Position numbers and translations under genes: made by a program. From Chondrosia reniformis (taxonomy: Eukaryota > Porifera > Demospongiae > Chondrillida > Chondrillidae), in NCBI GenBank assembly GCA_947172415.1, contig OX359192.1:64501-128500 (forward strand): DNA of 64,000 bases, in the 5' to 3' direction. Positions 486 to 60,500 of the stretch are shown piece after piece (within the stretch, counting starts at the first letter, position 1; the number at the start of each line of letters is the position of its first letter). The notes beneath the pieces are model-generated. The model did not search any database, was not told the origin of the DNA, and worked only from the letters and a program-made list of their open reading frames with translations.

Positions 486-1560
486 ATGAACGTTGCTGCT
501 ATAGTTGATGTAGAGAATTACCTTGGAGATGCTTCTCAATGTCATTTAGCAAAACTACTGATAAAAGGTCGGTACAGTAATTAAGTAGAGTGTGGCAGTT
601 GTTGACTGGTTGCCGCTCCCTTAGAGTTGACTGGCGATGCAGATGATTGTCAATGGAGTATCGATAACAAGTATTACGAGGCCAGAGTGTCCTTGGATGT
701 GATAGCTGGCGGAGCCCAACTCTCTGAAAGGCACCAAGCGATAGTAATTGTTGCTTCAGAATTTAAAAAAGAAGATCTATTTGGCGCTGTAGAGGACTTT
801 TGGGTCAAGCATTGCAGTGGCAATGTCGCTCCCGAGATCCAACTCTTGGTCGAAGTAATCAGTCAAGAGGTGGTCTCTCATAACGAGTCAAAGAGGAAAC
901 GAATACTTGAGTGGTGCATTGATAAGGGATTTGAGCTGGTCACTTGGAAGATTGCTGGAAAGTCACATGATCAGTCACGTGACCCAGATGATGTTGATGG
1001 TATAGAGAGGATAAGAGATGCTCTCCAGGCCCACATGTGGCCAGAGATGTCCATGAAATCGGGAGGCACCCAGGAGAGGAAGACGGAGGCCGTCTGCAAA
1101 GAGGCAGTTCAAGTACCTCAGGAGCTCCTTACCAGTGAGTAGTTAACTGATCTCTTATTAATAAGAGCCCATGGGCCAATATACTGTACAGCATGTCAGT
1201 TGTAATACAAGTCATGTCACTCTCCATTAGATCCAATTATTGGTGACGTCCTTGAGAGTGATGTCCTTGAGAGTGATGTGTGTGGATCAGTTTGTCCAAA
1301 GGATGAGGAAGAAAAGGAGTTTGAGTCTTTTGAAAAACTCTTTTCACAATTAGCAAACATGAAAGGTATTTTTGTCACATGACCATCACATGCTCATCAC
1401 ATGACATTCCTGGCATGCAGAGAAGGCAGCCAAGCTTCCTCATGAAGAGAGACTAGAATATGCAGAAAAGGCAATGATGTCTTTTTGGAAGACAATGGGA
1501 GGTGACTTGGAGGAACTTGAAGATGATTCTTCTGACACAATTGACAAAGCAAGCGACTGA
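486..1560 (+). CDS. AAGAB: Alpha- and gamma-adaptin-binding protein p34
   Basis: AAGAB is a cytosolic chaperone-like factor that binds AP-1/AP-2 adaptor subunits during complex assembly. Four exons are inferred: 486 to about 567, 624-1134, 1231-1365 and 1421-1560. The family signature WSIDNKYYEA is followed by a GTPase-like fold region and ILEWCIDKGFELV. The C-terminal helix reads KAAKLPHEERLEYAEKAM then FWKTMGGDLEE, which is strongly diagnostic of AAGAB. The ATG at 486 (MNVAAIVDVENYLG) is the first in frame and sits at the divergent promoter. The exact end of exon 1 is the least certain boundary. Intron 3 (1366-1420, 55 bp) is largely built of TCACATGA motifs, and similar motifs lie in exon 2 near 965-980. 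Confidence 0.9.
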
Positions 1561-1768
1561 TTGTGCACTTTTAAATATTTTCTATTCTACTCAATATCTC
1601 AGTGTGGGGCACTGTGAGTGACATTTTATTTAGCATTCTCAATTATTAGCCATTCACTAGGCTACAGTAGGTCAACTACTTATAGATGCAATTCAAACTA
1701 TGAGTCGTACAACAACTGATCAATTAGTTTAAAAATAATGTACAAAAATTAAAAGGTTAGGACATACG
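1561..1768. other. Short convergent intergenic gap
   Basis: AT-rich sequence between the AAGAB stop and the stop codon of the opposite-strand gene. It should hold both 3' UTRs. No repeat or RNA gene is visible. Confidence 0.5.
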
Positions 1769-3123: not shown

Positions 3124-10524
<7,401 letters not shown>

Positions 10525-10722: not shown

Positions 10723-13700
10723 ATGGAAATGGAGCTGACGGACGTAGAACGACCGGACAACGGCTCGTTTACTGGAGGTAATTAGAGAAGAAGGAGGTAG
10801 CGTAACAAATGATATAAGAATAATGTCTGTCTACCAATTAGAGGAACGTGTGCCGGGGGACTTTGTACTAGAGAATATTGAAGCTATAGAGGATGATGAT
10901 GCGTTTGGAGACGATGGTACAGTCACTGTGTACATTATGAAGGACCAACTCTTTGTTTCTTTGTGTCTGATCGCGTGTTGAAGGCTGACGGTTTGTCTGT
11001 TTACAGGGTTCGCGGATCCGAGAGGTTCGGTAGGTGAGCCACGCCCCCGGATCAATACAGCAGAAACAGACAATTCGGAGGCCGCCCTCTTCTCCGATCT
11101 GCCCTCGTACCAGTATGCAGCCAACTCAATCGAGCGAAAGAGCATTGTATTTCGAAATCAGAAGCGGAACAGCGTGGCTCCGGCAGACACGGAGTGGACT
11201 GAGAACGGTGAGGGGAGGGCAACGGAAGGCGAAGGTCGGTCGACGAGAGCCCGCTTCATATCTCGGTCCTTCTCGGATCGACGTAACAGGAACCGCGTAC
11301 GCTTTGCTGAAGCGCCTTTGAGGCGAACGTCATCATTTCCAGAGCAAATAGACTCGCTTGATGTGGAAATTAACATATTTGACAACCTTCACGAGACCGG
11401 CCGAACCTCTACCCTACCCCTGGCCACTAGGATAGACTGCAGGTAAGTGTCACCCCACCCCCCACCCCTCGGGGAATGTTTTGCTCACATGCTCAGAAGA
11501 ATGCATGTTCATGCCTTTATATGTAAGTGAGCTATATCTCTGTTGTTATGAACCTCTCCCTGCCCCACTGTTGCTAGGCGACATGCAGAATTTAAGGTGC
11601 CCCAGCAAGCTAGAGTGCCATGTTGGGGAAACTTTAGAGATATCGTAAGTTTGTTTGACTCAATTAACATTACAAATGCTCTTTGATTAGTGTAAACACA
11701 CTCTGTAGTACTGGCCTAAGGTGACAAGTAGGCTCAAAGGACTGTTGTCATGGCAACTGTGGTCCTATCATCTGAAGGTTGTTGAAGGTAAAATAGCTTT
11801 TTATTTGTAGCCCGGTCCTCTTATGTTGGCTTCTTATATACGTATGACTTCATCCTTAGGTCGCTTTGGAACTGCTGTAGTGTCGTACTTTGTCTTCCTC
11901 AAGTACCTCTTTTTAATGAACCTTCTGATGTTCCTGATATGGACTTGCTTTGTGAGTGTTCCCCACTTTATCTGGCGAGGCTCACCCTCGGGAGTGACAG
12001 CTTATGAGAACAGTACAACCTCACAACTGACATGCCTCCTAGGACTGGACCAGTTGCCAGGCAACACAAGCTGTACCAGTTACTGTGGAGGGATCCATGT
12101 GGTATCTGACTGTCCTCAGAACACGAGCACGTTTCCCTCCTCTGACTGCAGTGTGGTGGATGGTGCAGTCTTCTGGACAAGTGGCACGGCTAAGAGTGTA
12201 CAAGTTGAGAGTGTCACTTGTCTGAACAGCACTGAATACTGTTTGTGTCGCAGTGTGCCAGTCGCAGCCACTGAGTGGTACCAGCACATAATTGATTTTA
12301 TCACTGGACAAGGACTGTTCAATACAACTGTTCTATTTATTGGCCAGTACCACAATGGAAGAATTAATGAGGTTTATGACATGCCCGTGGCATACCTGTT
12401 GACTGCTGGATGGCTGTACGTCCTCAGCATTACGATCATAGTGTGGAGGTACTGTAATCTTGGAGACTGCGTGTGTGGTGTAGTGTTTCAATTCCCAATT
12501 TACATATTTAGAATGGGAGTGGCATTTGGAGACAGCTACACCAGACTAGTGTATGGCTCAAAGATAGACTATTGTAACAAGGTATTCACAGCCTGGGACT
12601 TTAATGTGACTGACAGAAAGGCAAGTAGGCTGAAGCGAGAAGCCATCAAAACTGAGTTGCAGGTAAGACAGCCCTTGACGCACATGGCACATCTTCAACT
12701 TCTGCGCTCTCATTCTAAAGGAAACTTTGATAGACCAACAAAGGAAAGAAGAAAAAAGGTCTTGCAAAGATCTGGCGATTGTCATCCTGATAAGGATATT
12801 CAGCAATATATTTGTTCTGGCTACACTGGCCGGAGGAGGAGCTGCCATCTACTATGCAGTGCAGTACAGCACAGAACAGCGGTTTAATATAGTCAGCTAT
12901 TGACATCACATGACTGTCACATGACTGTCACATGATTCTCTAATCATATTCATGTAGGAGGCAATTAATACAACCATTAATCTGGCTGGTCTGGTATCTC
13001 CTATTGTCATTTCCATATTGAACATTTCACTTCCAAAGATTTACTACCTGCTCGCACACTATGAGCATTACAAGACCAAAAGTGGCATCATCAAAGTGAC
13101 CCTTTTTAGGTACAGTCTCGTTAGTAAGACCTAGGGACACACCCACCCAGCTAGGGACACACCCACCCAGCTAAGGACACACCCACCCAGCTAAGGACAC
13201 ACCCACCCAGCTAGGGACACACCCACCCAGCTAGGGACACACCCACCCAGCTAGGGACACACCCACCCAGCTAGGGACACACCCACCCAACTGAGGACAC
13301 ACCCATCCAATTAGGGACACACCCACCCAGCTAGGGACACACCCACCCAACTGAGGACACACCCATCCAATTAGGGATACACCCACCTGCCTAGTTTATA
13401 TGATCCCTTATTGTCTCTTATTAGAGCTATTGTTGTCCGTTTGGCCTCTCTGATGGTTCTTGTGGCTTCCCTCTTCTCCCAGCTGCGCTGCACTCAGCCA
13501 GCCTCTTCAGGTGACGTCTGCACTGCAGCAGGAGCACTACTGGAGGGCGACATTGACAGTGACCACGTGTGTACTCAGGTGAGACAGCCCATTGCACAAT
13601 AACATGTTTCCATGGCAACTGCAACACATTTTGTGGTAACTACAGCAATTTGTCTAACTTGTGTTTTTTATGCTTAATGTCTGATATTGTTTCCATGGTA

Positions 13701-15042
13701 ACAGTGTTGGGAGACCTTGGTTGGTCAAGAGTTGTACTCTCAAGCAGTCTTCACTCTTGCACTGAATGTACTGAGCACCATAGCGGCAGATAGTGCTAAA
13801 AAGTGAGCATCAAAGTGCCATGGTCATGTGACAGTCACGTGACATCCATTTCATTTAGGTTGTTAAGCTTATTCTTAAACTCCAAGTGTATTGTGAGGCT
13901 TCTGAAAGGAAAGAGATTTGGCGACAAGATCCCACTTGAGTTTGACATTCCCACAAGCATTTTGGATGTCATCTATGCTCAAGCTCTGTTTTGGTAAGCG
14001 ACATGGGCCAGGATATATTGACAGTCACTTGATTGCACCTCATCTCTACAGGTTGGGCTTCTTCTTCTCTCCATTCCTACCCTTCATCACAACTGTTCAT
14101 TTCCTGATACTTTTTTATGTCAAAAGAGTAAGTCCCTGCCATTAGCACCTCCTACCTACATATTATTCCTTGCCCTTGCCCTCTGGCAGTATTCAGTCAC
14201 TATCAACCTCAAGCCTTGGCAGGAGGGACAGTACCGAGCTGCCAGAACCAACTTCACTTACCTCCTCCTGCTCCTGTTGACTCTATTGGCAGCTATGGTA
14301 CCAGTTGGGTTTGCCATTGGACAGTGAGTGTTCTGCTACGCTTGTGTCAAAGCACATTATCAGTCTCTGTAAATCTACTCCACAGGCTAACACCAAGTCA
14401 GACATGTGGTCCCTTTAGGTAAAGAGTTCCTAGCCACACCCACCATCATATGACCACACCCACCATCCGATGACCACACCCACCTTCCTATGACCACACC
14501 CACACTATTACCTTTACTGTAGGAATCAAGCTTTCTTATACTCCATTATTGAGGATCGTATTGATGAACTTGCATGTGAAGCGAGAGCAGCTACTGGCTT
14601 CCTCACTTCACTCGGATTTATTATTCCTCTCATTATGTTCTTTATGTAAGTCACAATCTGTTTTGTCAGACAGCACTTCAGACCAGTCTCTCCTGTCTCC
14701 CCAACTCTCCTCTGTCTATGGTGTAGGATGTCCTCCTTTGGTCTAGCTCTGGTAGCACGTTCAAGAGGCAAGTCAATCAAATTGTTGGAAAAACAGCTTA
14801 GCCTCGTAAGTACATGTCAATACACATGTACACAGATATGCAAGATGATCATGTGACCATCATGTGACACATGTTGTTCACAGGAGAGCAGCAATGCAAA
14901 CTACTTAATGGGCAAGCTGTTTGGGGAGGAGGAGCCACGAGCTACTGATTCTGTATTCACAATTTTGCGAAAAAAGAGTGCAAAATCTGGCATGTCAAAA
15001 GCTAGGCAACATGCTCCACAAAGAAACCATGGCAACCACTAG
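10723..15042 (+). CDS. Transmembrane channel-like (TMC) protein
   Basis: TMC proteins are multi-pass membrane proteins related to anoctamins; some form mechanotransduction pores. The start MEMELTDVERPD is joined over a short intron (GGAG|GTAATT to ATTAG) to acidic and then Arg/Ser-rich cytosolic sequence. Membrane segments begin near 11860 (LKYLFLMNLLMFLIW). A Cys-rich extracellular loop follows, then DLAIVILIRIFSNIF, LVSPIVISILNISLPKIYYL, and the TMC hallmark CWETLVGQELY (13705-13737). The remaining helices include FWLGFFFSPFLPFI and FTYLLLLLLTLLAAMVPVGF. The protein ends HAPQRNHGNH*. Exons join in phase throughout. The acceptor before CWET lies inside a GTTTCCATGGTAAC palindrome. Subfamily (TMC1-3, 4-8) cannot be decided by eye. 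It runs tail-to-tail into the SLC12 gene, 139 bp apart. Confidence 0.9.
13125..13395. repeat. 20-bp minisatellite in TMC intron
   Basis: About 13 copies of a 20-bp unit (AGCTAGGGACACACCCACCC) with a few variants, between the exon ending GIIKVTLFR and the exon starting AIVVRLASL. Confidence 0.9.
14425..14510. repeat. Short 20-bp tandem repeat in TMC intron
   Basis: About four copies of a unit containing CCACACCCACCATCATATGA. It is intronic, just upstream of the exon encoding NQAFLYSIIEDRIDE. Confidence 0.8.
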
Positions 15043-15181: not shown

Positions 15182-18100
15182 TTAGGCATAGAAGGTGAGG
15201 ACACTCTGTTGGTTGCCTCTCATCATCATGACTGGAGGTAGGCCGGCCGACATCACATCCAACCAGCTCATGTACTGGTGGGCAGAGCTGGAGGTCTTCT
15301 GTGGAACAGACATTGTACTGCAAGGACAAACAATGGTGAGACAGGAGTGTGGGACAGGTGCAGAGAGGTGGGACAGGAGTGTGGGACAGGTGCAGAGAGG
15401 TGGGACAGGAGTGTGGGACAGGTGCAGAGAGGTGGGACAGGAGTGTGGGACAGGTGCAGAGAGGTGGGACAGGAGTGTGGGACAGGTGCAGAGAGGTGGG
15501 ACAGGAGTGTGGGACAGGTGCAGAGAGGTGGGACAGGAGTGTGGGGCAGGTGGGGCAGGTGGGGAGAGGTGGGGTAGGTGGGGAGAGGTGGGGTAGGTGG
15601 GGCAGGTGGGGCAGGTGGGGAGAGGTGGGGTAGGTGGGGCAGGTGGGGCAGGTGGGGAGAGGTGGGGCAGGTGGGGCAGGTGGGGAGAGGTGGGGAGAGG
15701 TGGGGTAGGTGGGGCAGGTGGGGCAGGTGGGGCAGGTGGGGAGAGGTGGGGCAGGTGGGGCAGGTGGGGAGAGGTGGGGTAGGTGGGGCAGGTGGGGCAG
15801 GTGGGGAGAGGTGGGGTAGGTGGGGCAGGTGGGGCAGGTGGGGCAGGTGGGGAGAGGTGGGGCAGGTGGGGCAGGTGGGAGAGGTGGGGCAGGTGGGGAG
15901 AGGTGGGGCAGGTGGGGCAGGTGGGGCAGGTGGGGAGAGGTGGATTACTCACACAACAATAAGTGTTGCTTCACTACTTCTTTCTCTCAAAATCTCTCCA
16001 AGTCGAATGTGGCGTAATGTCTGGGTATAATATACGTAAAATATGTAAGCAGTAACCATGGCAACCACTTATATACTAGTCTTGTATGCTATACTTTAGG
16101 ATGAAGTTTTCCAGAAATGGTAGCTCCGAGACTCTTCAAGTAAGTACTCTTGTATTTATCAATGTTCTCTTGGGATGGTCTACCTACGTTGTCAATTTCT
16201 TCAACAGTCGAATAATCAATTCTGAATTTGTGCAACATTGATGTCATCCTACATAAAGCAAAAGATGTTGCTAAGCAACAAACTACACATATATACAGTA
16301 TACCAACCTTAGAGTAGCACTGTCAATGTGATTTGGGGAGTTGACAGTGAATATTCTCAATTTACACTTTTTCCACTTTGAGTTTTGCAGAAGAAGATAT
16401 GGCAGCAGCAGGCACAGACCTACGACAGGAAACCAATAGTAGCACCAGGGGTTAGAGTTTAAAGGCTTAATACCTACCTCCATCATCATAGAGCCAGTAG
16501 ACATCAATATGGCCGCTCCCCTGGTTGTGTGAGAACCGTGAAGGCATGGTGACCACTCCAAACTTGTCCACAGAAGCTGTTACTGACTGCGGCCTCTCCT
16601 CAATACTGTCAAACTGCACCTCTCCCTGCTCTATAGCAGCAGCGTAGCTGTCCACAGTCTCAGTGACGTCCATCACATCCAGCACCGGTGGAGGAGGTCG
16701 CTTGTGGAAGACTGACACCTCCATGTCGGGATAGAGCTCAGCTCTTTGGTCCGAGGATCTCTGAAGGGAGGCTCCACTTCCCTGCCGAGGCAGGGATGGA
16801 GGGTTATCCTCAAACACGCTACCCAACAGGGGCTGACTCTCAAAGTGTTTCTGAGAGCTGTTACTAAGGTAACGGGGAGTGAGGGTGACAGGTGAAGAGA
16901 CGTTCTTGGATTTTTCACTTTCAGTGGTGTCAAACCCAGCCCTCAACCTGAAAACGACCACGCCCATTTGGCACTCAAAGGCATCCTGAATAACCTGGAC
17001 GTACTCCTCCACCTCATATATGGGGCAGTCAGCCCAGTCATTCTTGTAACCAATGACAACGGTGTTGGGTGACAGCTTGCCAAGGCCAGTGGTCTGGAAG
17101 AGTGCCCTACATCCAACACTCAGCTGTGAGGAGAGAATGCTCTTGTAGAATGCCTTTATCTTTTGCTGGTGCAGCCATTTTGATTGCAAAGCTTTAATCT
17201 TGCTCTGCTGTTCGCTGCCGATTTCATTCTACAGTTACAAGCAAATGCAAGTAACTTGACACAATGTATTTCTACATCACGGGTAATGCTTTGAGTGGCA
17301 AATATATCGTTTTGTTGCAGAAATGACTTACTTTAAGTACATCTCCAAAAATGAGTACTCCTGCATTTCCAATAACTTGACTACAAAATGTTACTAGATC
17401 AGGACGGGATGATGGTCGCCCTGACAACACCAGGAGGTGTGGCCTGCAGGTCACATGACACTATTCATTCAATACACAAGAACCAGCACAACTGCACAAA
17501 CCTGTAGTTTTTAATGTGCCCAGCAGATGAGTCCAGCTTCTTGAGGCTCAGCATGGCGTGCATGTACCAGAAGGCCTGTCCGCTGGAGCCCCAGTTGATG
17601 TCCGGCTTCTTGTAGGCCACATAGGCATAGAGAGCAAGTATCAAGACAATTGTTATCAGTGCTGTCCACCATTTTATGATAAACATAATGACGAAACACA
17701 ACAGAGATGTGTACAGGGCCACCCATTTGTTGTAAAACTTGAAAGATGGCCGCCATCCTGGAGAGACAATTGGGAGCATTTGACACACTTAATCAATGAT
17801 GGGGTCACTTGGCTTACCCAAGACACGCCCTAATGACACACCCACTTACCTGGAGACTTGGAAAAGGATGCTTGAAAACAGGAGTAGTTGATGAGAGTGT
17901 ACGCAGCCAGGAAGAAGTTTGAGATGATTGGGGCAATATCATTTAGCCTACCTGTAATGCCATACCAACATACTATATACACTGTAACCATGGCAACACA
18001 CAAAGTATACATACCTATTAATACAAAGCCTAAAGCAATGACAAATGTTAAAAAGTATCCTCGAATTGGTTCCCTTCCGGATCGACCTCCTTCTTTAGCA

Positions 18101-20533
18101 AAGAAATGGATCAGTGGAAATATTTTGTCCTGTGCAACTCTCTGAAAGACCTTCGGAGCACTCACTAAACTAGTCAGTGCTGAGGATAGTGTTGCCGCAA
18201 ATATACCTACGAGTGACATCACCAGATGAGTCATCATACAGACACATACACACACATACAGACACATACAGACACATACAGATACAGACACATACACATA
18301 CAGACACATACAGATACAGACACATACACATACAGATACATACACATACAGATACATACACATACCGATACATACCACAATAGATAATTGGTGCATAAAG
18401 AGATATTGCAGCTACAACTTGAAAGTTGTTCAGAAGTCCATTCTGACAGGTAAGTCGTGAAGTGGAGTTGTCAGTTGCTATTGAAGTAAACTCTGAACTC
18501 CTCAAAGTTGAGCAAATCTCCCTCTGAAACACATTGTAAGAGCGACCCAGGTCGTTGAAGAGGCCGTACGTACTGTTACACTCATTGGGGATGGAGGCCG
18601 GGAACAGAACACTTTGGTAAGTCAGATTTGCAGTGTCACAGAGGGGGATCCGGCTCCCCTCCAGGGCGTCCCTCACCACCACCATGCCACACAGAAGGCT
18701 CACCAGCAGATAGGTGACCCCACAGATGACAATGGCCAATAGGGTGCCCTTGGGTATAGCTTTGGATGGGTTCTAGTGGAGGGAAGGCATTGTGCAATCA
18801 AGTGGAGATGTTGCACAACCATACATAGATGCTTATAGTGACTACCTTCAGGTCTCCTGAAATGTTAGCTCCAGCTAGTATGCCTGTAGCAGCGGGAAAG
18901 AATATCCCAAATATTATAAAAAAGGATTCTATATTTCCAAGAATCTCATTTGAATTATTGCTCTTTCCGTCATCACGAAATGAAGGTCCAAAATTCTCCA
19001 CAATAGTCTCACCTAGTCAAAGGAAGCAAGTGTCAAGGGGGCGTGGCTAGGAGTATCAAGGGGGCATGGCTAGGAGTATCAGGGGGCGTGGCAGGCAGTG
19101 TGGGGATAGAGAGTTGTCATACCAGAAAAGTAAGTGAAGCCATCGTAGCGCAGATAGACCCAGTTTGGAATGAGAACTCCAATTATAAAACTAGCAATTG
19201 ACACAACCATAATAATCAACAGTATTATCTGGACCTATAGCAAACCAAGATAGCATGTGACATCATGTGACATCATGTGACACTCATGTGACTCACGATG
19301 GCTTCCCAATCAAGTCCTATTAAGGTAATTATAAGCAGTACTATAAGAATGAGTGTTCCAATTACTCTAACGTCATTTTCCATGTTGCTAGTGAGAACTC
19401 CATTACTGTCCTACTTGTAGGAAATGGTAATCCCCAATGGGTGTGGCAGGTGGGTGGGGCAAGTGGGTGGGGCAGGTGGGTGGGGCATGGTGACTTACTA
19501 TAATCAGTTCATGACAGGTCTCTGCAAACCCTACCACATACAGAGCTACGGCTACAGCGTTGGCTAACGAGAAAATGATTCCAATGGCTCCTCCTACACA
19601 CACAATGAACCACTGCTGACGAGGCAGTCTCGGTTTAAACAAGCATGGACTTACCAAACTCGGGGCCAAGGCTTCGAGATATGAGGTAGTAAGCTCCGCC
19701 CCCTTTTATTTGTCCATTAGTAGCAATGGCTGACATGGACAAAGTGGTCAATATTGTCACTTTTACAGACAAAAGAACAATGACAGCTGCCAAACCTACA
19801 CATGAAACATTCAATAGAGTACATAAAGGTCACATGACTGTCACATGACCAACTCACCAATCCCAGCTTGACCAGTGATCCAACTCAACCGTAGAAACAG
19901 CATCACTCCCCAAATGTTGAGAACACATCGAATCTGCAGACACAGCAAAGCTATTGCTACCACACACCCACAGTGTTCTATAGGACACTCACTAACACTC
20001 CCACGATCCACCCAAACTTCTTGGCCCGTTTTGGCTTGTCCCTCTTATTCCTTTTGCAACATCTCTTCCAAAATGTACTTCCATAACTGGCCTCACTCAC
20101 ATACTCGTCTTCTCCGTCAATACTCTAACACATAGAGAAGGGCTTAACCGCGCCCACTCAGTCAAGCAAGGGCCAGATCGCTTACAGCTACTGTCTCATA
20201 ATTAAGGCTCTTCCCGCCGGCCATGAGGTCCTTTAGTGATGGTCTCTTCTCAGACCCCTCGTCCCCTGTGCTCCTGTAGTGAGCGGTCTGGGGGGCCGCG
20301 TCCAGAGTGTGGTAACCAAAGGTGTGTTCTCTGACAGTCGAGTCCAGGCCCTCCTCCCCGGGCCCATCTCTCGCGTCTCCAGGATCCACTTGATTCTCGT
20401 CAATGTGCTCAATCTCAAAGCGGACTGCCGCTCTACTCTTAGCAGTCTCGCCAGGTAGATCTGGAGACGGACTCTGAGTTGGGAGGGAGTCCTCACTCTT
20501 TATCAAGTAACTCTTTAATTCGGGAGTAGCCAT
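15182..20533 (-). CDS. Na-K-2Cl / Na-Cl cotransporter, SLC12 family (NKCC type)
   Basis: Plasma-membrane electroneutral cation-chloride cotransporter. The N-terminus starts [10 protein letters not shown] (20533); an upstream in-frame ATG lies at 20554. It carries [10 protein letters not shown], an RFx(V/I) motif of the kind bound by SPAK/OSR1 kinases, and [17 protein letters not shown], which aligns with the NKCC regulatory threonine region. Twelve-helix core pieces are visible on successive exons ([39 protein letters not shown]). The cytosolic C-terminus includes [31 protein letters not shown] and the terminal [12 protein letters not shown]. These favour the NKCC/NCC branch over KCC. The glycosylated loop 7-8 contains several N-x-S/T sites (18430-18700). 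About 18 exons; no disruption seen. Several introns hold minisatellites, including G-rich ones near the 3' end. Confidence 0.9.
15345..15545. repeat. 32-bp minisatellite, last intron of SLC12 gene
   Basis: About six copies of a 32-bp unit built from GTGGGACAGG, AGTGTGGGACAGG and TGCAGAGAG. It merges into the next, related array. Confidence 0.9.
15545..15942. repeat. G-rich GTGGGGCAG / GTGGGGAGAG array
   Basis: About 400 bp of mixed 9-10 bp units (GTGGGGCAG, GTGGGGAGAG, GTGGGGTAG). It is probably derived from the adjacent 32-bp array by loss of part of the unit. A related GTGGGTGGGGCAG tract occurs at about 19440-19490 in another intron of the same gene. The plus strand has many GGGG runs and could form G-quadruplexes. 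Confidence 0.9.
18238..18372. repeat. Microsatellite-like ACATACAGATACA array
   Basis: Irregular tandem ACACATACAGATACAG units in an SLC12 intron. Confidence 0.85.
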
Positions 20534-20656: not shown

Positions 20657-23367
20657 TTAATACTGTTTCCGTTTCTTCTTTGCGATCAGTTTGAGCAAGC
20701 TATCTCTGTCACTGCAAAATACACAGAATGTAAATTTTTGCATTATATTAGAGTCACTACATATGGATGGATCAACTACATTGGATTATACAGTCTACAT
20801 ACTACATGTATATATGTGTGCAGTCTCACTTTGGCTTTACTGACTGACTGTCATTAGAGATTTGAGAAGGTGGTGGTCTCTTTGCAGTGTGAGGTGAATT
20901 CTTCAGTTGCCATGGTAACTGTGCATCTGTTGGCTGAAGTATACTCAAAAGTCTTGCAAACAAATCTAATCAGTGGGTGTGGTACTACATATATCAGTGG
21001 GTGTGGTACTACATATATCAGTGGGTGTGGTACTACATATATCAGTGGGTGTGGTACTACATATATCAGTGGGTGTGGTACTACATATATCAGTGGGTAC
21101 GTATGAGTTAATACGTTTGCTAGTGTTGTTGACAAATGTGACAGCTGTGCCGCTAGTGCCAAGTCTAGCACATCTCCCAACCTGTGGGAAATACGACATA
21201 TCATAACAGAATGATAGTAATTTAGAAGATGAGACATTACAGAGCGAACCTGATGAACATACTCATCAACAGAACAAGGAAAGTCAAAGACTATAACTTG
21301 CTGACAAGATGGTAGGTCGATGCCACGTCCCAGTACACCGGTGGACACCAATACACTGTACTTGCCATCCTTGAAATCCTCGAGTATCCTAATTCTTATC
21401 TTCTGTTCCATCTCACCATGAAGTGCCATCGCAGATACCTCACAGCTCTAGAGGTCCCAACACATACCATATATGGTATCACTATTAAGGCCCTTGAGTT
21501 GAGAACTTTATGTACAGCTGAGATACGTTGTGACATACCTTGTTTATGGCTTCTGCCAGTAGTAGTGAGGCCATCCTTGAGGATACAAAGACAATTACTG
21601 GAGGCCTACAGTGAACAAAAATATTCAAATCTGATTGGCTGACTGGCTGAGTGGTTGGCTTGCCAACTTGAAATGTTTCTTGTCTTTTAATAATGTGAAA
21701 AGTCTTTTCTTCTTCACATCTTCCTCTTCCCACAGAATTACATGTTGAATGCCCTCAGCTAGTTGTGAGGGCTGGAGAGGGGAGGAGAGGAGGGGAGGGG
21801 AGGGGAGGAGGGAGGGGAGGGGAGGAGATGATGAGAGGAGAGGAGTGGGAGGCTTGACATGGACAACCTCTTCTGAACTCACAGCTCCAACTGTTATGAA
21901 TAATGGATCACTCATTAGCTCATTGGCCAACTCCACCATTTTAAGAGGAATGGTAGCGGAGAACATTAGAGTGTTTCTTTGAGCCGGCACTGCCTCCAAC
22001 ACTTGTCTCATCTACAGAATGAGGTCACTCACACCAGGACAGATAAATCAGGCAGATAATACTCAGTTACTTGAGTCTCAAATCCCATTTGTAGCAAGCT
22101 ATCCACTTCATCCAGCACAACATACTGAACTCCACTCAAGTCAATCTCAGAAGCTACACACAGTCAACCATGTGTGCCAATGATGCGACCATTTTAAAAA
22201 GGGTCACTAACCATGATTATTTATAATGTCCAATAGCCTTGCTGGAGTGGCAAAGATCATCTAAATCAGGGAGCAGACATACTGGTCACATGATGACCAC
22301 CCTAAATGGATGCAGGCTAACTTGTATCTGCTGCCTCAATCTATAGAGTTGGTTGGCCAAGGGAATTCCCCCTACTATTAGAGCAGTTTTCATGTTTGGT
22401 AAACCGGCCATGAGTTGCTTAGCAACCACTTCTGTCTGGATGCATATTTCTCTAACTGGAGCCACCACAAGAACAACGGGAATATTACTGTTCAGCCACC
22501 AGCTCCTCTCCACCAACGGCAACAGGAAGGAGAGAGCTACAAAGGAAGGAGAGCGCTACATGTATACACACACACAGAAGTGAGGCTGAGACTAAAGCTT
22601 GGTACATCAATGTCTTACTCTTTCCTGAGCCTGTGCTGGCACTGACGAGTACATCCCTGTTATTAAGCACAGCTGGAATCACTTGCTTCTGTACAGGAGT
22701 GGGTCCAGTGATGTGTAATGAATCCTTGAGGTTGTGCAATACTATAGCATATGGAATAGCCATCACTGTAATGGTTACCATGGTAATCCACGCAATTACT
22801 ATGGTAACCAACCCTTTTCACTTGATAAGCAATCTTCAAAGCTTAAAACTGGAGTTGGAACTGAAATACCTTTAACTTTAATATTCAACTAGAAAGGTTT
22901 TGGAAACATGGCTTACAAGTTAATTAGCAAAATGGCCACTTTACCTCATCCCAAATTGTAGTAGTCACTTCTTCAGAATGACCTACCGCAGTGTCCCCAC
23001 CGACCTGACCTACTGCAGTGTCCCTACCGACCTGACCTACTGCAGTGTCCCTACCGACCTGACCTACTGCAGTGTCCCTACCGACCTGACCTACTGCAGT
23101 GTCCCTACCGACCTGACCTACTGCAGTGTCCCTACCGACCTGACCTACTGCAGTGTCCCTACCGACCTGACCCACTGCAGTGTCTCTCTTATGAATCGAT
23201 TTCCATTTACACTCTAAACTACAAACGTCTTCATCTGTTTCATCGCAAATGTATTCTCCATATCGTCCGCAAACCACACATTCTGGATCCCCTGGATCGG
23301 GCCACCTCTGGTAGTGTGCAAACCGTACCACTGGCTCCTCGTCGTCTTTACAATGTTCAGCGGCCAT
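20657..23367 (-). CDS. DDX59: DEAD-box RNA helicase with HIT zinc finger
   Basis: DDX59-type helicase. The start [14 protein letters not shown] (23367) leads to [19 protein letters not shown] and a Cys-rich HIT zinc finger ending in [11 protein letters not shown], the distinctive DDX59 N-terminus. A coding 27-bp repeat follows, then an exon with [13 protein letters not shown]. Helicase motifs: [11 protein letters not shown] (Q motif); ASTGSGK joined to [11 protein letters not shown] (Walker A); APVREIC (Ia, variant); [14 protein letters not shown] (motif II is DEVD, not DEAD); FSATIP (III); [12 protein letters not shown] (V); [10 protein letters not shown] (VI). The C-terminus is [15 protein letters not shown]. 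About ten small exons. The start codon lies 144 bp from the divergent UNC93-like gene. The repeat insertion between finger and helicase is unusual. Confidence 0.92.
20968..21108. repeat. 24-bp minisatellite in DDX59 intron
   Basis: Almost six copies of a 24-bp unit containing CAGTGGGTGTGGTACTACAT. It lies downstream (on the minus strand) of the exon encoding motif VI, so it is likely intronic. Confidence 0.85.
21772..21846. repeat. Purine-rich GGGGAGGA tract in DDX59 intron
   Basis: About 75 bp of G/A only on the plus strand, so pyrimidine-rich in the DDX59 transcript. Confidence 0.8.
22982..23180 (-). repeat. 27-bp coding minisatellite in DDX59
   Basis: Seven to eight copies of a 27-bp unit encode VGRDTAVGQ on the minus strand, in frame with the upstream zinc finger and with [11 protein letters not shown] before the next donor. 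There is no stop in the array. Copies are nearly identical, which suggests recent expansion. Confidence 0.9.
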
Positions 23368-34262: not shown

Positions 34263-34310
34263 TTAGATGTCAACTATTACTGAAATAAAATACTTTTCAC
34301 AATTAGCTAT

Positions 34311-39349: not shown

Positions 39350-40665
39350 ATGAGCTCGCCAGCAGTTGTATTGCTCTTTTGTGGAAAGAGAAAGTCTGGA
39401 AAGGACTATGTCGTTAATCTTCTTAAACAAGAGTACGTCACGTGATAAACCCTTGGATACAGTAATGCAATAGTCTAGTACTGTCCTGAATTTTTATGTC
39501 TAGAGATGGATGACTTAATCGTGTGTAATAATTGATTGTTTTGATTTCTGAGATATTTCTCCTTTCTATTTAGACTATCAGAAGAGGTTTGTGAAGTTTT
39601 ACGATTATCCGAGCCGTTGAAATCTGATTACGCAAAAGTAATGGCTCACATATATATTATTGTTTGTGTGAGGTGGAGCAGGTGTATGTGTGTGTGTAGG
39701 AGCAGGTGTATGTGTGTGTGTAGGAGCAGGTGTATGTGTGTGTGTAGGAGCAGGTGTATGTGTGTGTGTAGGAGCAGGTGTATGTGTGTGTGTAGGAGCA
39801 GGTGTACGTGTGTGTGTAGGAGCAGGTGTACGTGTGTGTGTAGGAGCAGGTGTATGTGTGTGTGTAGGAGCAGGTGTATGTGTGTGTGTAGGAGCAGGTG
39901 TATGTGTGTGTGTAGGAGCAGGTGTATGTGTGTGTGTAGGAGCAGGTGTATGTGTGTGTGTAGGAGCAGGTGTATGTGTGTGTGTAGGAGCAGGTGTATG
40001 TGTGTGTGTAGGAGCAGGTGTATGTGTGTGTGTAGGAGCAGGTGTATGTGTGTGTGTAGGAGCAGGTGTATGTGTGTGTGTAGGAGCAGGTGTATGTGTG
40101 TGTGTAGGTGCAGGTGTATGTGTGTGTGTAGGAGCAGGTGTATGTGTGTGTGTAGGTGCAGGTGTACGTATGTGTGTAGGAGCAGGTGTATGTGTGTGTG
40201 TAGGAGCAGGTGTATGTGTGTGTGTAGGAGCAGGTGTATGTGTGTGTGTAGGAGCATGGGTTGGATTTGGCAAAACTGTTGGACTCGTCTGATTACAAGG
40301 AACAGTTTCGTTCGGACATGATTAGTTGGGGCGAGGTGGTGCGTGCAGAGGATCCAGGGTACTTCTGCCGGAGGGCTTGTGAGGCAGCCACAAAACCAAT
40401 CTGGATCATCTCTGATGCCAGAAGACTGAGTGATATGGAGTACTTTAAGGAGAGATATACTACGCTCACTGTACGAGTGACAGCTGCTGATGCCATTCGT
40501 AGGGGGAGGGGCTGGGTATTTACCAGTGGGGTGGACAACGCCCCTTCAGAGTGTGCTCTGGATGGATACACTTGTGATATGGAAATAGATAACAATGGAA
40601 ACCCTTTGAAAGCTCCACTGAAAGTGTTGACAGAAAAGGCAATGACATTTGTTAACAAAACATGA
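39350..40665 (+). CDS. PMVK: Phosphomevalonate kinase
   Basis: Phosphorylates mevalonate-5-phosphate to the diphosphate in isoprenoid synthesis. Three exons join exactly in phase: 39350-39432, 39574-39637 and 40252-40665. The P-loop-like GKRKSGKDYVV near the N-terminus matches animal PMVK. EHGLDLAKLLDSSDYKEQF, WGEVVRAEDPGYFCR, PIWIISDARRLSD and GRGWVFTSGVDNAPSECALD follow the family order. Length (about 186 codons) is close to the usual 190. Intron 2 is almost entirely a 24-bp minisatellite that ends at the 3' splice site. The C-terminus lacks a clear peroxisomal SKL-type signal (ends VNKT). Tail-to-tail with PEX11, 159 bp apart. Confidence 0.95.
39673..40251 (+). repeat. 24-bp minisatellite made of copies of the PMVK 3' splice site
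   Basis: About 24 copies of a 24-bp unit ending in TGTGTGTAG then GAGCAG. The true acceptor TGTGTGTAG|GAGCAT follows as the last unit, so the unit includes the splice site and the first bases of exon 3. Read in the PMVK frame, each unit ends in TAG. Confidence 0.95.
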
Positions 40666-40824
40666 TCAATGCATTGTGTGTATTTTTATATTCCTCACCC
40701 TATATGGGGTTGCAAACATTGTTCATTGATATCCAGTAGAAAATTAGTTACTTAAAAGTGACTCAACAAAATTTGAAAAATGATGCATGCAGAACTCAAT
40801 ATGGAGCAGACTAGTGGAAGGACT

Positions 40825-41724: not shown

Positions 41725-42438
41725 ATGGCGGCCATGGATGACGTCCAGGTGGAGGGTGTATACGATGAGTTTAGGGATGATTTTGTCGATGGTGAGTGAC
41801 AGTTGAAGCGAAATACTTTATAAATAAATATTTTAAAATGTTTACTTGTTTCTCATTTAAAGATCCCATTTCGAGGATAAAGCAATCGGCCACAAAGAAG
41901 AAAGGAAGGGGATTTGAAGGTAAGTGCGAAATTTAAGAGAAAAATCGCGCCAATCGTTTGGTAGTTCACTTTTGTTTCATTCCTTTCAGATCGCAATGAT
42001 GCAATGGATACGGAATATGAAAGTGTACCAACAGAGTCGGGACCAGGGCCTCTTAGATGTACGTAGGTGTCACGTGATGTGCTCATTCTCTTATCAGTTG
42101 ACTGAATGTTTGTGCATAAAGTCACGTGATACTGTATGTGTTGTGCAGCGGTAGAGGGATGGATCATAGCAGTTACAGGAGTGCACGAGGAGGCACAGGA
42201 AGACGACATTTATGACAAGTTTGCAGAATATGGAGAGATCAAGAATCTGCATCTGAATTTGGACCGCCGGACGGGGTACCTGAAGGGTTACGCACTGATA
42301 GAGTATGAGACATTGAGGGAAGCACAGGCGGCTATAGATGATCTGAACAATGGAGAGATCCTGGGTCAGAAGGTTGAGGTTGACTGGGCCTTTGTCAAGC
42401 CCCCAGCCAAAGGGAAACGTGAATCTCGACCGAGATAG
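41725..42438 (+). CDS. RBM8A: RNA-binding protein 8A (Y14), exon-junction complex core
   Basis: Y14 pairs with MAGOH in the exon-junction complex deposited upstream of spliced junctions; it is nuclear and shuttling. Four exons join in phase. The N-terminus [19 protein letters not shown] leads to [18 protein letters not shown], then an [42 protein letters not shown] and [20 protein letters not shown] (RNP1/RNP2 positions of the degenerate Y14 RRM), and [18 protein letters not shown]. It ends ESRPR*, a basic RS-like tail. Length about 165, close to the human 174. Introns contain TCACGTGA boxes (about 42070 and 42121). Confidence 0.96.
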
Positions 42439-42725: not shown

Positions 42726-45700
42726 ATGATGAAGACGGCCGCGGGAGGCAGAGACTCCGCCATTTTTAGCCATTTTAATGGGTATCGCCCACTCGGTTTG
42801 GGTCAGGGTTATCCTCATCCTGAGCTGATCAAGGAAGAAATGCAAGCTCTCCCAGGAGCAGCTAACTCGGGAACGTGTACCTATTCAGTTGGATACGTTA
42901 GGAAGAACCCTTTCTTAGTGAGTTCCTTGCCGCCCGTCCTATATAGCGTCATTCTGTTGGCGATTGTGTCTGCGGTAGAACAACTGTAAATATCGCATAT
43001 AGCATTGCGTTATAGCCTCATTAAATACAGGAGGTCGAGGTAGAGTGACTCGAGATTGTTTGTATATCTCGTATGTATCGATCCCTCCTAATTTGAGGGA
43101 TGTCATTGACCAATGTCTCCATTTAAAACCCCTGGCTCTTATATTTTTGATGTCAACTTAAAGCCCCTGGCTCTTATATGATGCTTTCTTATGGTAGGTG
43201 TATGGTTCTGGTTCCAATGTTGTCATTTTAAATTCGGAATTGAACTGGGTTCAGACATTGACTGGATCAGACTGTGGTTACCCGGGGCAACTTGTGTCAT
43301 GTGTTGACTCAGCAGAATATGGTGGTAAAGTGAGTGCATATGTCTGACCATCAGATACACTATATAAATGGACTTTGACCTTTCAGATTGCCGCTACGTG
43401 GGATCAAGCTATTGTGATATTTGATGTTTCTCCAAAAGACAGTTCCAAGGAGAAAGATGATGAGGTTTGTGGTTACCTTATATGGGATTGATGACCATCT
43501 TGTTGGTGGTTACCTTATATGGTATTGACGGCCATCTTGTTGGTGGTTACCTTATATGGGATTGACGTCCATCTTGTTGGTTACCTTATATGGGATTGAC
43601 GTCCATCTTGTTGGTGGTTACCTTATATGGGATTGACGTCCATCTTGTTTGTGGTATAGGAGGAATTCCCATTTGAATGGCGAATGGTGACTGCCCTCAC
43701 TCTCAGCAGTGAAATACATTCTATCCATTGGAGCAGTCAAGGTTAGATACACACCCATAGCTTATGTGTGTGTCTGTGACCAAGATGGCTGTCCATCGTT
43801 ACCTAGGTAACATGCTCCTGACAAGTGGAGAGGACTTGGTCCTCTGGAGTGAGCCTCCCTCCCTCCCATCCATCAATGAGGAGGAGGAGCTGGGGGGCGG
43901 GGACTGGAGGGAGACCAAGTGGATACAGACCTGGAAAGAAGCTCTTCCCCAGCCACCCATCCTCATCAAGTTCTCTGGAGATAGTACAATGTTTGCTACC
44001 TGTGGAAAGGTATTTGCATTTATATCATTTTAGTGCCTTGATCTAATATTGATTTAGTATTGGCATATGTAGAGTTCTGAGGTAGCTCCTACATGTATAA
44101 ATTGTGTGTTTAGTATTGGCATATGTAGAGTTCTGAGGTAGCTCCTACATGTATAAATTGTGTGTATGTAGAATGAGAGACTTGTCAAGATATGGTATCA
44201 GACCAGTCCTGAAGGAAGCGACAGAAGAGAGTTCTCTTTTGTGTACATTGCACACCCCCAGCCAGTCAGAGGAATGGAATGGAGGAAGACAAGTCCTCTA
44301 ATGCCATCGTAAGAATAACCTTTTTAATCTTTATCAGTACTTCTCCTCAACTCCCCCCTCCCTCTCCCTCACCTCTTCCTCTCCCCCTCCCCCTCTCCCC
44401 TCCCCCCTCCCCCTCCCCCTCCCTCTCCCCCTCCCTCACCCTCTCCCCCTCCCCCTCCCTCTCCCCCCTCCCTCTCCCTCCCCCTCTCCCCCTCCCCCTC
44501 TCCCCTCCCCCCTCCCCCTCCCCCTCCCTCTCCCCTTCCCTCACCCTCTTTCCCTCTTCCTCTCCCTCAGTGGGTATGTCCCCAATGTGCTAATGACATC
44601 ATGTGAAGACAGCACTTGTCGTTTTTGGACACACTCCGGTCAACCTGAAGGCAGATCTTACTATGAAAATGTATGCTTTTTCTTAGCTACCACCATAGAC
44701 TCGCAAGCAGACAACATTCTAAGATCCACCTTACCCTTTGGTCAGTCCCCATTCATTGTCCACTGGCTGGATAATAAAGCCATTACATTTATGCAAAAGG
44801 CTGGAAAGGCCTTCAAGGCTCGCTCTCGCCTCCCCAGTCTCTCCTCATCTCGCCAAAGCCTCAACAATGAGTCAGAGATTAGCATCAAGGACACAGACAC
44901 TACCAGTGACCAGCAGAGTGATCACGATGAGGAGGATACACTGGGGGCCATGCCAGAACGATCCCAGACCTCCACCACCATACCCAGGAGGACCTCTCTG
45001 AAAAACTTTTTTACTGGAGGAGATCGGTTCGCCCGCAGACAGCATTCTCTGCCAGTTATATCTACAGATGCATCCGAGTCCTGGTTGTACGTCAAGTCTC
45101 CACGGAAACAGAAAACGGTCAGTGTTGGAAAGCACTCACTCCCAAAGAGGATGTTGGATGACCTTCTCAACACCTGGAGATCCTCTTCAGATCTCGTCTT
45201 TGCCATTCACCCCCTAGCCGGCTCGCTGCTGATCTGGACGGTGGATGGACTAGACTACCCTAAGCACTCTATACGAGTAGCTCATACTAGTTTCACCTCC
45301 TGCATCCCCAACGTCATTCCTCCCGCCATAGCTGAACAGATGCGGACAAAGGTCTGTAAGGTCACCAGAGAGGGGCTCTTTGAAGATCAGAGCTCCTCCG
45401 AAGATGTTGTCTCCTTCACTATTGGTGGACAGAGCACGAAGCAGCCGGAATGTGACCCCAAGAAGGTTTGCAAGACGGAAGCATGGTTCCTGGGGCTACT
45501 GACTTGTAACACTCATGGATCTTTCAATCTCTGGTCAGTTGAGCAAAATACAATTGGAAATCATTCCTCCATCTCTGGATTAATCCATCTAGCTTCTGTC
45601 AGTGGTCACCATGGTAACATAGTTGGAGCTACACCCCACCCACTTTGTCCAATATTGGCAACCTCAGCTGAACAAAGTATCAAGTTGTCAGGGGCAGTGA

Positions 45701-57416: not shown

Positions 57417-57532
57417 TTGCAAGGGGTAGCACCCTCTTATTAACATTCTCCAGATTGTCTAAACAGTGTCACGAGATCTTTGAAAAGTGAATTCCGTTTT
57501 TGTTTCTCAGTTTCTCATTCTCTAGCAAAGAG
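57417..57532. promoter_or_regulatory. Divergent promoter, TTC7 / SERINC
   Basis: A 116-bp gap between divergent start codons; no TATA box seen. Confidence 0.45.
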
Positions 57533-60500
57533 ATGTGTCTTCCCTTTCTGGGTTGCCTCTGCGGTCCCTCCTCTTGCTGCTGCTGTGCAGTGTGCCCGAG
57601 CTTTCGTAACTCCATTTTGACAAGAGTAGCTTACGGGATCATCCTTCTGTTGACAGTCATTTCCGCCTCAATCCTCCTCTCTCCTCATATATTTCAGGCC
57701 ATTAATGAGGTTGGTAAATAATAAATAAACCTTATTCACTCTCTCTATTGGAAAGAAAGAGATTTAAATGCGCCATCACTAGTACATGACATTCATTCGC
57801 CGCATAAATTTGTATCCACTCGAATTGTGACTTTCTTCTACAGAGCTTTCTGTGCAACCGCTTTGTGGTGAACATTCAAGGGGCCACGCTGGTGAACCTC
57901 AGCAACCCGGCCAAGGAGACCATTTGTGGGAACCTGTTTGGCTACATCACTGTGTATCGCATCATGTTCGCCTTGGCCATCTTCTTTGCTGTCATGGCTC
58001 TTCTGATGATCTGCGTAAGGAGTACTAAAGACCCGAGATCTTACATTCAGAACGGATTCTGGTTCTTCAAGGGATTGTTCATTTTCGGCATTACTATCGG
58101 GTTCTTCTTCATTCCCACCACACAGAACCTTGTGTTCAGTAGAGGTACTTGAGTGAGAGTGTGATAGTGTACTGCTGCTCCATCAGTACGAGCTGGTTCT
58201 ACTGCAGTCTGCCGTTCCCATTCTGTAGTTGTGATGGGGATAGGGATGGCTGGTGCTATAGTGCTCATTGTCCTGCAGGTCATTCTACTGGTGGACTTTG
58301 CGCACTCCTGGAACGAGTCTTGGTAAGTGCTTTGCAGACGAGTGACAGCTGGTGATGATACTATTTGTGCTGCTACTGCTACAGGGTTAAGAAGGTTGAA
58401 GACAATGACAATAAGGCGTGGTATGTCGGTAAGTGCCATCCAGCAGTACTGCATACGTAGATATATGTATGTAGACCTCTTCCCTTCCACCTCTCCCATC
58501 TCTACCCTCTGTCTCTTGTATCTCACAGGTCTCCTTATATTTTCCTGCCTATTCTATTTCATTGCAATTATTGGAATTATCCTGATGTACGTCTTCTTCA
58601 TTCGAGTGAGTTCACAAGTGTCTTCACTAGTTGTGCCTCGCATTGCTCAATCTATGAATTTCCTCTTTTAGCAGGAGGGTTGCCATGCCAACAAGACATT
58701 TATTAGTGTCAATTTGATACTCAATATAATTGTGTCAATTCTCTCTGTCCTTCCATGCATCAGAAAGAGTAAGTGGTCATGTGACTTGCATGTGACCTTT
58801 TAACTCGAAAGTATTCTGTGAATTTAGAGCAACCTCAATCTGGCCTCCTTCAATCAAGTATTGTCTCACTATATACAACTTATCTGCTGTGGTCAGCACT
58901 TTCCAATGAACCATATGGTCAGTTAACATCCATCCATCCATCCATCCATCCATCCATCCATCCATCCATTCTGTAGGTAAAGATCAAGATTGTAACCTAG
59001 GCCATTCCACAGTTGCGGGGGTGTTCTCTGCCGGTGGTAACCAGGTGGCCGTCTCTGTGGTTGGAATAATTCTGATATTCCTCACTGTCACTTACATGTG
59101 GTATGTGCTCATGTCACATGTACAGGACCCACTACTGTTTTATATTGATACTATAGGCATACTAAATGTACAATTTGTATGCAGTTTCAGGGCTTCCTCG
59201 AGATCAGAGATACACAAACTATCGGGTGGTAATGCAGATGAAACGGTCGATGAGGTACGTCCATGTTTATATACTCTTGTTTAACAATCACACTGTCCTC
59301 TTCCGTCTCCTCCCACTCATCCAATGTGGCAGACTACGATACTCACAGGTGAGTTGCTCTCTCTCTCTCTCTGGTGTGCCTAGGATTCTGGTGCAAGTGG
59401 CCCATGTGGTTGTTTCTGTGCAGATGGTGACGATGGTGAGTCTGACGGTGACAAGAAGACCAGTAATGTGGATGACGAGAAGGAGAAGGTCACATACAGC
59501 TACACTTTCTTCCACCTCCTCATGTTCCTGGCCACGCTCTACATTATGGTACAACTGACCAACTGGTACAAGTACGTATCTACATTACCTACCGAATGGG
59601 GGCGTGTTCCATCTCATATACCCTCTGCTTCCTACTGAATGGGGACGTGTTCCATCTCATATACCCTCTGCTTCCTACTGAATGGGGACGTGTTCCATCT
59701 CATATACCCTCTGCTTCCTACTGAATGGGGACGTGTTCCATCTCATATACCCTCTGCTTCCTACTGAATGGGGACGTGTTCCATCTCATATACCCTCTGC
59801 TTCCTACTTAATAGGGACGTGTTCCATCTCATATACCCTCTGCTTCCTACTGAATGGGGACGTGTTCCATCTCATATACCCTCTGCTTCCTACTTAATGG
59901 GGGCATGTTCCATCTCATATACCCTCTGCTTCCTACTTAATGGGGACGTGTTCCATCTCATATACCCTCTGCTTCCTACTGAATGGGGACGTGTTCCATC
60001 TCATATACCCTCTGCTTCCTACTGAATGGGGACGTGTTCCATCTCATATACCCTCTGCTTCCTACTTAATGGGGGCGTGTTCCATCTCATATACCCTCTG
60101 CTTCCTACTGAATGGGGACGTGTTCCATCTCATATACCCTCTGCTTCCTACTGAATGGGGACGTGTTCCATCTCATATACCCTCTGCTTCCTACTTAATG
60201 GGGGCGTGTTCCATCTCATATACCCTCTGCTTCCTACTGAATGGGGGCGTGTTCCATCTCATATACCCTCTGCTTCCTACTTAATGGGGGCGTGTTCCAT
60301 CTCATATACCTTCTTTAGTACAGTAAGACCTTTATAATCTGTCCCTTGATTTTCTGTCAAACTGCGATGCCATATATAGAGATGTCACTGTTTGTATTTC
60401 TGTGTAAATGTGTCAAGTTTTGTAATTTTGTGGTTCCTTTTCTTGTAATGTCCAGTGTTGCAGTTATAACTCATCTCATGTTACTCAACTCTGGTAGCCA

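Follow-up and report, generated by a model that had tools for sequence, protein, structure and literature searches.

Introduction

Homotypic clusters of transcription factor binding sites are an established concept. Factors of the MiT/TFE family bind TCATGTGA (the M-box) and TCACGTGA (the CLEAR-box) (PMC6355916). In chromatin immunoprecipitation (ChIP) of MITF in gastrointestinal stromal tumour (GIST) cells the top motif was GTCATGTGAC (PMC12575911), and one of four CLEAR motifs in a TFEB target promoter has the same ten letters (PMC5691037). Here we describe arrays of sites of this type in the genome of the sponge Chondrosia reniformis. Our window, the whole 64-kb stretch of DNA that was analysed (C4:64501-128500), lies close to one end of an 8.95-Mb contig, and genome-wide counts cover 117,379,552 bases in 15 contigs. 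Sites recur at a spacing of exactly 11 bp, often inside tiny introns, which suggests that genes of this sponge hold many unstudied candidate binding sites. The observation is confirmed as real, strong and specific. The reading that we favour, tentatively and at somewhat less than even probability, is that 11-bp units of an MiT/TFE-type site were amplified within introns and have been retained as arrays of binding sites inside genes.

A ten-letter site repeated every 11 bp

The form RTCACATGAY was found 8,108 times in the genome (4,057 + 4,051), compared to 1,621 (786 + 835) for the reversed control. The form with opposite flanks, YTCACATGAR, is at background (661 + 632 = 1,293; control 654 + 773 = 1,427). 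Thus, the enriched unit is the ten-letter palindromic context. When the centre is left free (RTCANNTGAY) there are 19,102 places (control 10,385). Centres were counted manually in the first 100 of these rows (C1:0-327 kb): TG 46, CA 19, CG 7, TA 6, and 22 for the other 12 dinucleotides together. Sixteen of the 46 TG rows belong to one 20-bp minisatellite, and once they are removed CA/TG accounts for 49 of 84 rows, with CG at 7, TA at 6 and the other 12 dinucleotides at 22. Therefore, we describe the site as RTCAYRTGAY, with CA/TG preferred.

The spacing is equally specific. Pairs of TCAYRTGA at 11 bp occur at 1,205 places (control 9), whereas pairs at 10 bp are 15 times rarer (81; control 26). 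Direct TCACATGA pairs make up 814 of the 11-bp pairs (432 + 382; control 0 + 1) and inverted TCACATGA..TCATGTGA (CA..TG) pairs 150 (control 0); the other 241, counted jointly, comprise TG..CA pairs and those that include a CG or TA centre. Inverted pairs in the 11-bp register are expected if the site is read as a dyad. Direct pairs at 12-38 bp number 757 + 812 over 27 spacings (control 333 + 80), a count that includes 22-bp steps and minisatellites. Around the 37 perfect ten-mers of the window, the offset of +-11 matches the consensus best among all offsets up to 45. Arrays consist of two to about five copies and span 20-50 bp. Because 11 bp is the ten-letter site plus one base and 10-bp pairs are so much rarer, plain helical phasing is insufficient, and we ruled it out as a generic cause. 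Either an 11-bp unit duplicates or adjacent dimers require one spacer base.

Isolated sites are also in excess on the one arm stretch that was counted. We counted manually, in C1:0-327 kb, each RTCA(CA/TG)TGAY that has no other RTCAYRTGAY within 60 bp. The 17 such sites (52 per Mb, compared to a genome-wide control of 13.8 per Mb) are enriched about fourfold, so on that chromosome arm arrays alone cannot account for the abundance of the motif.

Motif copies in the window and in short introns

The window contains 43 eight-mers of the form TCA(CA/TG/CG/TA)TGA, whereas 100 dinucleotide shuffles gave a mean of 7.35 and a maximum of 13. Eighteen neighbouring pairs lie within 40 bp (0 in each of the 100 shuffles), so that two or more sites are nearer to each other than by chance, as in homotypic clusters. 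The neighbour spacings are 11 bp (13 cases), 12 bp (2), and 10, 20 and 22 bp (1 each).

Genes were modelled with our own gene finder, in which motifs are masked in the coding score. The models are predictions without RNA support; the settings were picked by eye on a CHD1-like gene, and adjacent genes are still fused in the models. Introns of up to 120 bp were classed as short. These hold 21 copies in 4,425 bp (4.75 per kb), compared to 2 copies in 23,160 bp of predicted coding sequence (0.09 per kb). Longer predicted introns hold 9 copies in 9,235 bp (including three of 5024-5087, where the donor was missed), and the remaining DNA 11 copies in 27,180 bp (including 13803-13858). Predicted introns, mostly ones about 60 bp long, therefore house 30 of the 43 copies, and the motif density of short introns in the window exceeds that of coding exons and of the remaining DNA. 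The places with motif copies are as follows.

963..982, plus strand: TCACATGA at 963 and TCACGTGA at 975, 12 bp apart, within a predicted AAGAB-like coding exon (625-1134)
1366..1420, plus strand: 55-bp intron with TCACATGA at 1375 and 1397 and TCACATGC at 1386 (sequence, gene finder)
3769..3826, plus strand: 58-bp intron of the CHD1-like gene with an inverted pair, TCATGTGA at 3782 and TCACATGA at 3793, 11 bp apart (gene finder)
5024..5087, plus strand: 64-bp GT-AG intron with TCACATGA at 5029, 5049 and 5060 (sequence; acceptor only from the gene finder)
5344..5407, plus strand: 64-bp intron with TCACATGA at 5376 and TCATGTGA at 5387 (gene finder)
6349..6409, plus strand: 61-bp intron in an SNF2 ATPase region with TCATGTGA at 6366, 6378 and 6389 (gene finder)
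7271..7332, plus strand: 62-bp intron with TCATGTGA at 7301 and 7312 (gene finder)
8697..8758, plus strand: 62-bp intron with TCACATGA at 8718, TCATATGA at 8729 and TCATGTGA at 8740, three centre types in 11-bp register (gene finder)
12882..12957, plus strand: 76-bp intron with TCACATGA at 12906, 12917 and 12928 (gene finder)
13803..13858, plus strand: 56-bp GT-AG stretch with TCATGTGA at 13824 and TCACGTGA at 13835 (sequence; no call by the gene finder)
14848..14868, unstranded: array with TCATGTGA at 14849 and 14860 (sequence)
17444..17501, minus strand: 58-bp intron with a single copy (TCACATGA at 17451 on the plus strand) (gene finder)
19252..19298, minus strand: array within a long intron predicted for an SLC12-like gene, with GCATGTGA at 19253 and TCATGTGA at 19263, 19273 and 19284 (sequence, gene finder)
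19796..19857, minus strand: 62-bp intron with copies at 19830 and 19841 (gene finder)
22261..22321, minus strand: 61-bp intron with a single copy at 22286 (gene finder)
34725..34745, unstranded: GTCACGTGAT (core TCACGTGA) and, 11 bp further, a decayed GTCATGTAAT (core TCATGTAA) (sequence)
36702..36711, unstranded: isolated GTCATGTGAC (sequence)
39437..39446, unstranded: isolated GTCACGTGAT (sequence)
42070..42129, unstranded: TCACGTGA only, with copies at 42070 and 42122 (sequence)
44599..44606, unstranded: isolated TCATGTGA with a 3' flank of A instead of Y (sequence)
58776..58796, unstranded: GTCATGTGAC and, 11 bp further, TGCATGTGAC (sequence)

Every place named in the original prediction carries the motif or its CG form on inspection of the sequence, and the seven short introns that it put forward all read GT...AG. 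The motif-masked gene finder recovered five of these exactly (1366-1420, 5344-5407, 6349-6409, 7271-7332 and 12882-12957); for 5024-5087 it predicted the acceptor and missed the donor, and 13803-13858 was not called. It also called motif introns at 3769-3826 and 8697-8758 and, on the minus strand, at 17444-17501, 19796-19857 and 22261-22321. Copies had also been placed inside an exon near 965-980, and the pair at 963-982 does lie in predicted coding sequence. This exon has a weak likeness to the Pfam family Adaptin_binding (28.2 bits; curated cut-off 32), which is consistent with a putative AAGAB. The gene around 3769-3826 is one that we take to be CHD1, and the exon downstream of the 6349-6409 intron matches Pfam SNF2-rel_dom. 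The SLC12-like label was assigned by inspecting the predicted protein, not by searching protein families.

That many introns are of this kind is true in a limited sense: among the 68 short introns predicted in the window, 10 have at least one copy and 8 have at least two. Motif introns are as long as the others (median 62 vs 63 bp; P 0.72 for introns with at least two copies). For comparison we used 20 samples of 10 kb taken at round coordinates, mostly distant from chromosome ends. These contain 7 copies of TCACATGA/TCATGTGA in 200 kb, and none of their 47 predicted short introns has the motif. The one-sided probability of 10 of 68 against 0 of 47 is about 0.004, a comparison to be read with the fact that the window itself was selected for its motifs. 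Four further loci (L025-L028) were selected by motif matches, and their proportion of motif introns (10 of 64) is biased accordingly.

A tRNA scan across the 64-kb window found none. A long CCCTCT-type low-complexity stretch lies between exons of the CHD1-like gene (4657-4875), and the same gene contains a minisatellite with TGTGTGCACGCATGTATTATGA-like units (7917-8120).

A candidate binding factor

The sponge site has the core TCATGTGA or TCACGTGA and the R/Y flanks of MiT/TFE sites. We searched the genome with the basic helix-loop-helix (bHLH) zipper of human MITF and identified one MiT/TFE-like locus at C10:425966-426554, whose two exons are 62% and 55% identical to the query. For the first exon, MITF (9.1e-12) and TFEB (5.3e-10) score best among solved relatives, followed by USF (7.7e-5) and Cbf1 (8.1e-5), and this exon matches Pfam HLH (2.6e-12). 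The second exon had no match in Pfam. The search was aimed at MITF-like genes only, and no other bHLH-zipper genes were sought. The Ile preceding ERRRR is retained in the predicted protein; we presume that it corresponds to I212. In the MITF work, I212 contacts the flanking T (PMC6355916). We infer that the product of the C10 locus may be the cognate factor of the motif.

The original prediction of an E-box of MiT/TFE type is supported by the flank preference, the order of centres (CA/TG, then CG and TA), the published M-box and CLEAR-box, and the presence of this gene. In a search of the open-licence literature for six ten-letter forms of the motif, the two papers found both concern mammalian MiT/TFE targets, and the titles and starts of abstracts among the matches listed gave no description of such arrays.

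Amplified binding sites or neutral repeats

In our proposal the repeated element is RTCAYRTGAY, a dyad-like site of 10 bp and an E-box of the M-box/CLEAR-box type, with one base between copies. It would be bound by a dimer of the MiT/TFE-like bHLH-zipper protein encoded in the genome. New sites would arise mainly by duplication of the 11-bp unit inside existing introns, where coding sequence is not harmed, and arrays would be retained because dimers bound side by side form elements within genes that influence transcription or chromatin. The suggested regulatory code, genome-wide and intronic, is possible but unproven, and it would be patchy given that none of the 47 sample introns has the motif. 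A more specific version is possible but rather doubtful: 11-bp MiT/TFE-type modules may have multiplied in short introns of genes on chromosome arms, with the rigid register packing bHLH-zipper dimers and marking the expression or chromatin of arm genes, and with modules turning over between paralogs.

The main rival is neutral repeat growth. In this reading RTCACATGAY happens to seed slippage or unequal exchange in a repeat-rich genome, from which mini-arrays of 11-bp units and longer minisatellites result, and the arrays have no function. We consider this unlikely on the whole, although some observations fit it, and several weigh against retention of the arrays as binding elements. Unit duplication by itself yields both the large excess of direct pairs (814) over inverted CA..TG pairs (150) and the frequent identity of the spacers in one array. 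Some pairs are recent copies of genes or repeats, e.g., six at C2:426-455 kb and seven at C2:992-1,297 kb. At offsets of +-11 bp we compared 14 near copies, with the L028 paralog intron excluded; a tolerated change of the centre is present in 4, compared to about 1.75 expected under our own 2:1 weighting of transitions, a difference that is not significant. The motif is missing in all 47 sample short introns and in 58 of the 68 in the window, and it is therefore not a general requirement of introns.

A further point is the speed at which an array can be lost or gained. Locus L028 contains two tandem kinase-like paralogs (regions of C5:7594521 and C5:7598923) with 29 differing positions in 1,688 columns, gaps aside. 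Between the intron at L028:3521-3612 and its counterpart at about 7923-8014, 4 of the 29 differences hit four perfect ten-mers (40 bp), one per copy; a fifth change immediately precedes the first copy, and no further base of the intron differs. A second array common to both paralogs (two copies, in another intron) is unchanged, at a locus that was picked because both paralogs match there. This one case suggests that whole arrays may be lost or gained together. Six near-identical copies of a gene segment at C2:426001-455350 (L037-L042), about 5-6 kb apart, each retain the 11-bp pair, as do seven other copies on C2 (L043-L049), and five places on C1 (L050-L054) are changed in some copies. These C1 and C2 copies were picked by motif match and are therefore no proof of conservation.

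Tandem repetition of the motif is seen directly. Tandem Repeats Finder reports 44 repeats with a period of 9-60 in the window; seven contain the motif as head-to-tail unit copies, all with a period of 10-11. Several of the window's tandem repeats translate into long stretches of repetitive predicted protein (e.g., 36837-41385), and the gene models there are therefore doubtful. At the four loci selected by motif matches, the motif is present in 4 of 16 repeats. A motif-conditioned search showed that TCACATGA is also part of several unrelated minisatellites with units of 19-38 bp (C1:230348-230674, 685242-685509, 1190634-1190845, 5966195-5966290 and 9038592-9038858), as if the motif had helped to found them. 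This leaves room for a site that additionally promotes duplication. However, neutral growth does not lead one to expect the roughly fourfold excess of lone sites on the C1 stretch, the dependence of enrichment on R..Y flanks, or the 11-bp register of inverted pairs. The 20 other samples contain 114 tandem repeats with periods of 9-60, none of them with the motif, and motif introns are not longer than others.

Position along chromosomes

Where mapped (C1 and C2), arrays prefer chromosome arms. By manual count, the 60 direct 11-bp pairs on C1 (10.41 Mb) are distributed as 34 in the first 1.5 Mb, 8 at 1.5-2.92 Mb, 0 at 2.92-7.31 Mb, 6 at 7.31-8.9 Mb and 12 in the last 1.5 Mb. On C2, among the 40 matches listed (up to 9.18 Mb), 35 are in the first 1.65 Mb and none at 1.65-7.69 Mb. 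The flank control YTCACATGAR is even along C1: a manual count gave 15 within the first 1.5 Mb and 45 across the 2.92-7.31 Mb interval.

The arm bias and the flat control would suit an element that works at the scale of the chromosome, with arrays docking a DNA-binding protein for meiosis or for chromatin domains of the arms, and with no gene-by-gene regulation. Pairing centres of worms, or introns with periodic An/Tn clusters (PATCs), are comparable in logic. We regard this as quite improbable, as arm samples are richer in predicted genes (in few samples) and the bias may partly follow gene density, several C2 pairs are copies of each other, and there are arrays in the interiors of other chromosomes (e.g., C4:5977684 and C6:4841241). 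Protein kinases were tried and dropped as a proxy for gene density, since their best matches belong to tandem families that are poor in introns. Protein kinase domains in unbroken reading frames form dense tandem families at C14:595401-1137371 and C9:5040239-5296498.

CpG decay, RNA-level roles and introners

Deamination of a methylated ancestral array of palindromic TCACGTGA, giving TCACATGA and TCATGTGA, is very unlikely to be the cause. CA, TG, CG and TA centres are each above the mean of the other dinucleotides in the 100 rows, and the CpG observed/expected ratio of the window is 0.36, both in favour of decay. However, independent decay predicts equal numbers of direct and inverted pairs, and we found 814 compared to 150 CA..TG, with at most 241 left for TG..CA and CG/TA pairs. 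This ratio speaks against decay of TCACGTGA as the sole cause, though decay may explain some flips of orientation.

It had also been suggested that inverted copies pair as hairpins in the pre-mRNA. Hairpins, or UGAY as a branch point, could assist the splicing of very short introns, but such an RNA-level role is highly improbable. We compared 20 motif introns (10 from the window and 10 from the loci picked for motif matches) to 80 of 134 others and found that they fold slightly better (mean z -0.55 vs +0.12, P 0.003). None of seven introns with inverted pairs reaches z -2, and direct pairs predominate over inverted CA..TG pairs (TG..CA was not separately counted), so hairpins would be a minor effect at most. 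Copies have both orientations relative to the gene (18 vs 21); the first copy begins 5-48 nt after the donor, and the end of the last is separated from the acceptor by 6-49 nt. Both orientations and free placement point to recognition of double-stranded DNA rather than of RNA. With no positional constraint and weak folding, and with 58 of the 68 window introns free of the motif, we rejected a branch-point or hairpin role.

Finally, the likeness between introns of different genes had been attributed to a spreading, introner-like family, i.e., introns that are copies of an array-bearing mobile element. Arrays from different genes are indeed alike. When two motif introns were used as genome queries, they matched unrelated places, and none of these matches spans the intron. 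Positions 12870-12970 gave 10 non-self matches, of which 9 fall inside query positions 31-73 (the array is at 37-66). The remaining match, on C8, reaches the 3' end of the 12882-12957 intron with 30 identical array bases plus 15 of 22 columns (45 of 52), and the 5' part of the intron is unmatched. The intron L028:3521-3612 with flanks gave one paralog and 36 matches within query positions 77-145 (array 87-128, intron 62-153). All-against-all comparison of the 20 motif introns, with motifs masked, yielded one paralogous pair only. A published introner screen demands likeness that extends to near both splice sites (PMC9860276), and in these searches no introns of unrelated genes show this. As the likeness does not span introns and no end-to-end copies were found, we rejected an introner family, which is scarcely credible as an explanation.

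Significance and comparison with known systems

Should the arrays be bound and have a function, introns of 60 bp, commonly regarded as spacers, would carry many sites of an ancient regulator of the MITF/TFEB line in an early-branching animal, and the 11-bp register together with the four-copy paralog pair would form a natural system for the birth, upkeep and loss of homotypic clusters. If neutral, a word resembling a binding site would have multiplied to thousands of copies with no transposon in evidence, which would be a caution for studies of motif enrichment.

The sponge arrays resemble homotypic clusters in packing several copies of the same site into tens of bases, and differ in their rigid 11-bp register, lodging in introns and arm bias. 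With minisatellites they share tandem unit repetition and repeated spacers. Unlike minisatellites, the unit is set by a flank-specific binding-site consensus, lone copies are enriched and inverted copies are in register. PATCs of Caenorhabditis elegans have a period near one helical turn and are also biased to chromosome arms. PATC-rich introns act on the expression of their host genes, and these clusters consist of A/T runs that make up 6-10% of the genome (PMC7725773), whereas the sponge unit is a specific E-box in arrays of 20-50 bp at exactly 11 bp (1,205 pairs, compared to 81 at 10 bp), not helix-phased A/T runs. Introners resemble the sponge introns in that short introns of different genes share sequence (PMC9860276), but in the sponge the likeness does not extend to both splice sites, and no end-to-end copies were found.

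In the sponge Amphimedon, a G-box-like E-box is over-represented in a compact genome; it sits around transcription start sites, and the part of that report drawn on here does not mention introns or 11-bp arrays alongside it (PMC4773876). The closest relatives of the motif are the M-box and CLEAR-box bound by MITF, TFEB and TFE3 (PMC6355916, PMC5691037, PMC12575911), with which it shares the 8-bp cores TCATGTGA and TCACGTGA and the R/Y flanks of GTCATGTGAC. The known sites, in the parts of these papers drawn on, are in promoters or ChIP peaks, whereas the sponge has thousands of copies of the site, with exact 11-bp arrays that in the window lie mostly in introns of about 60 bp.

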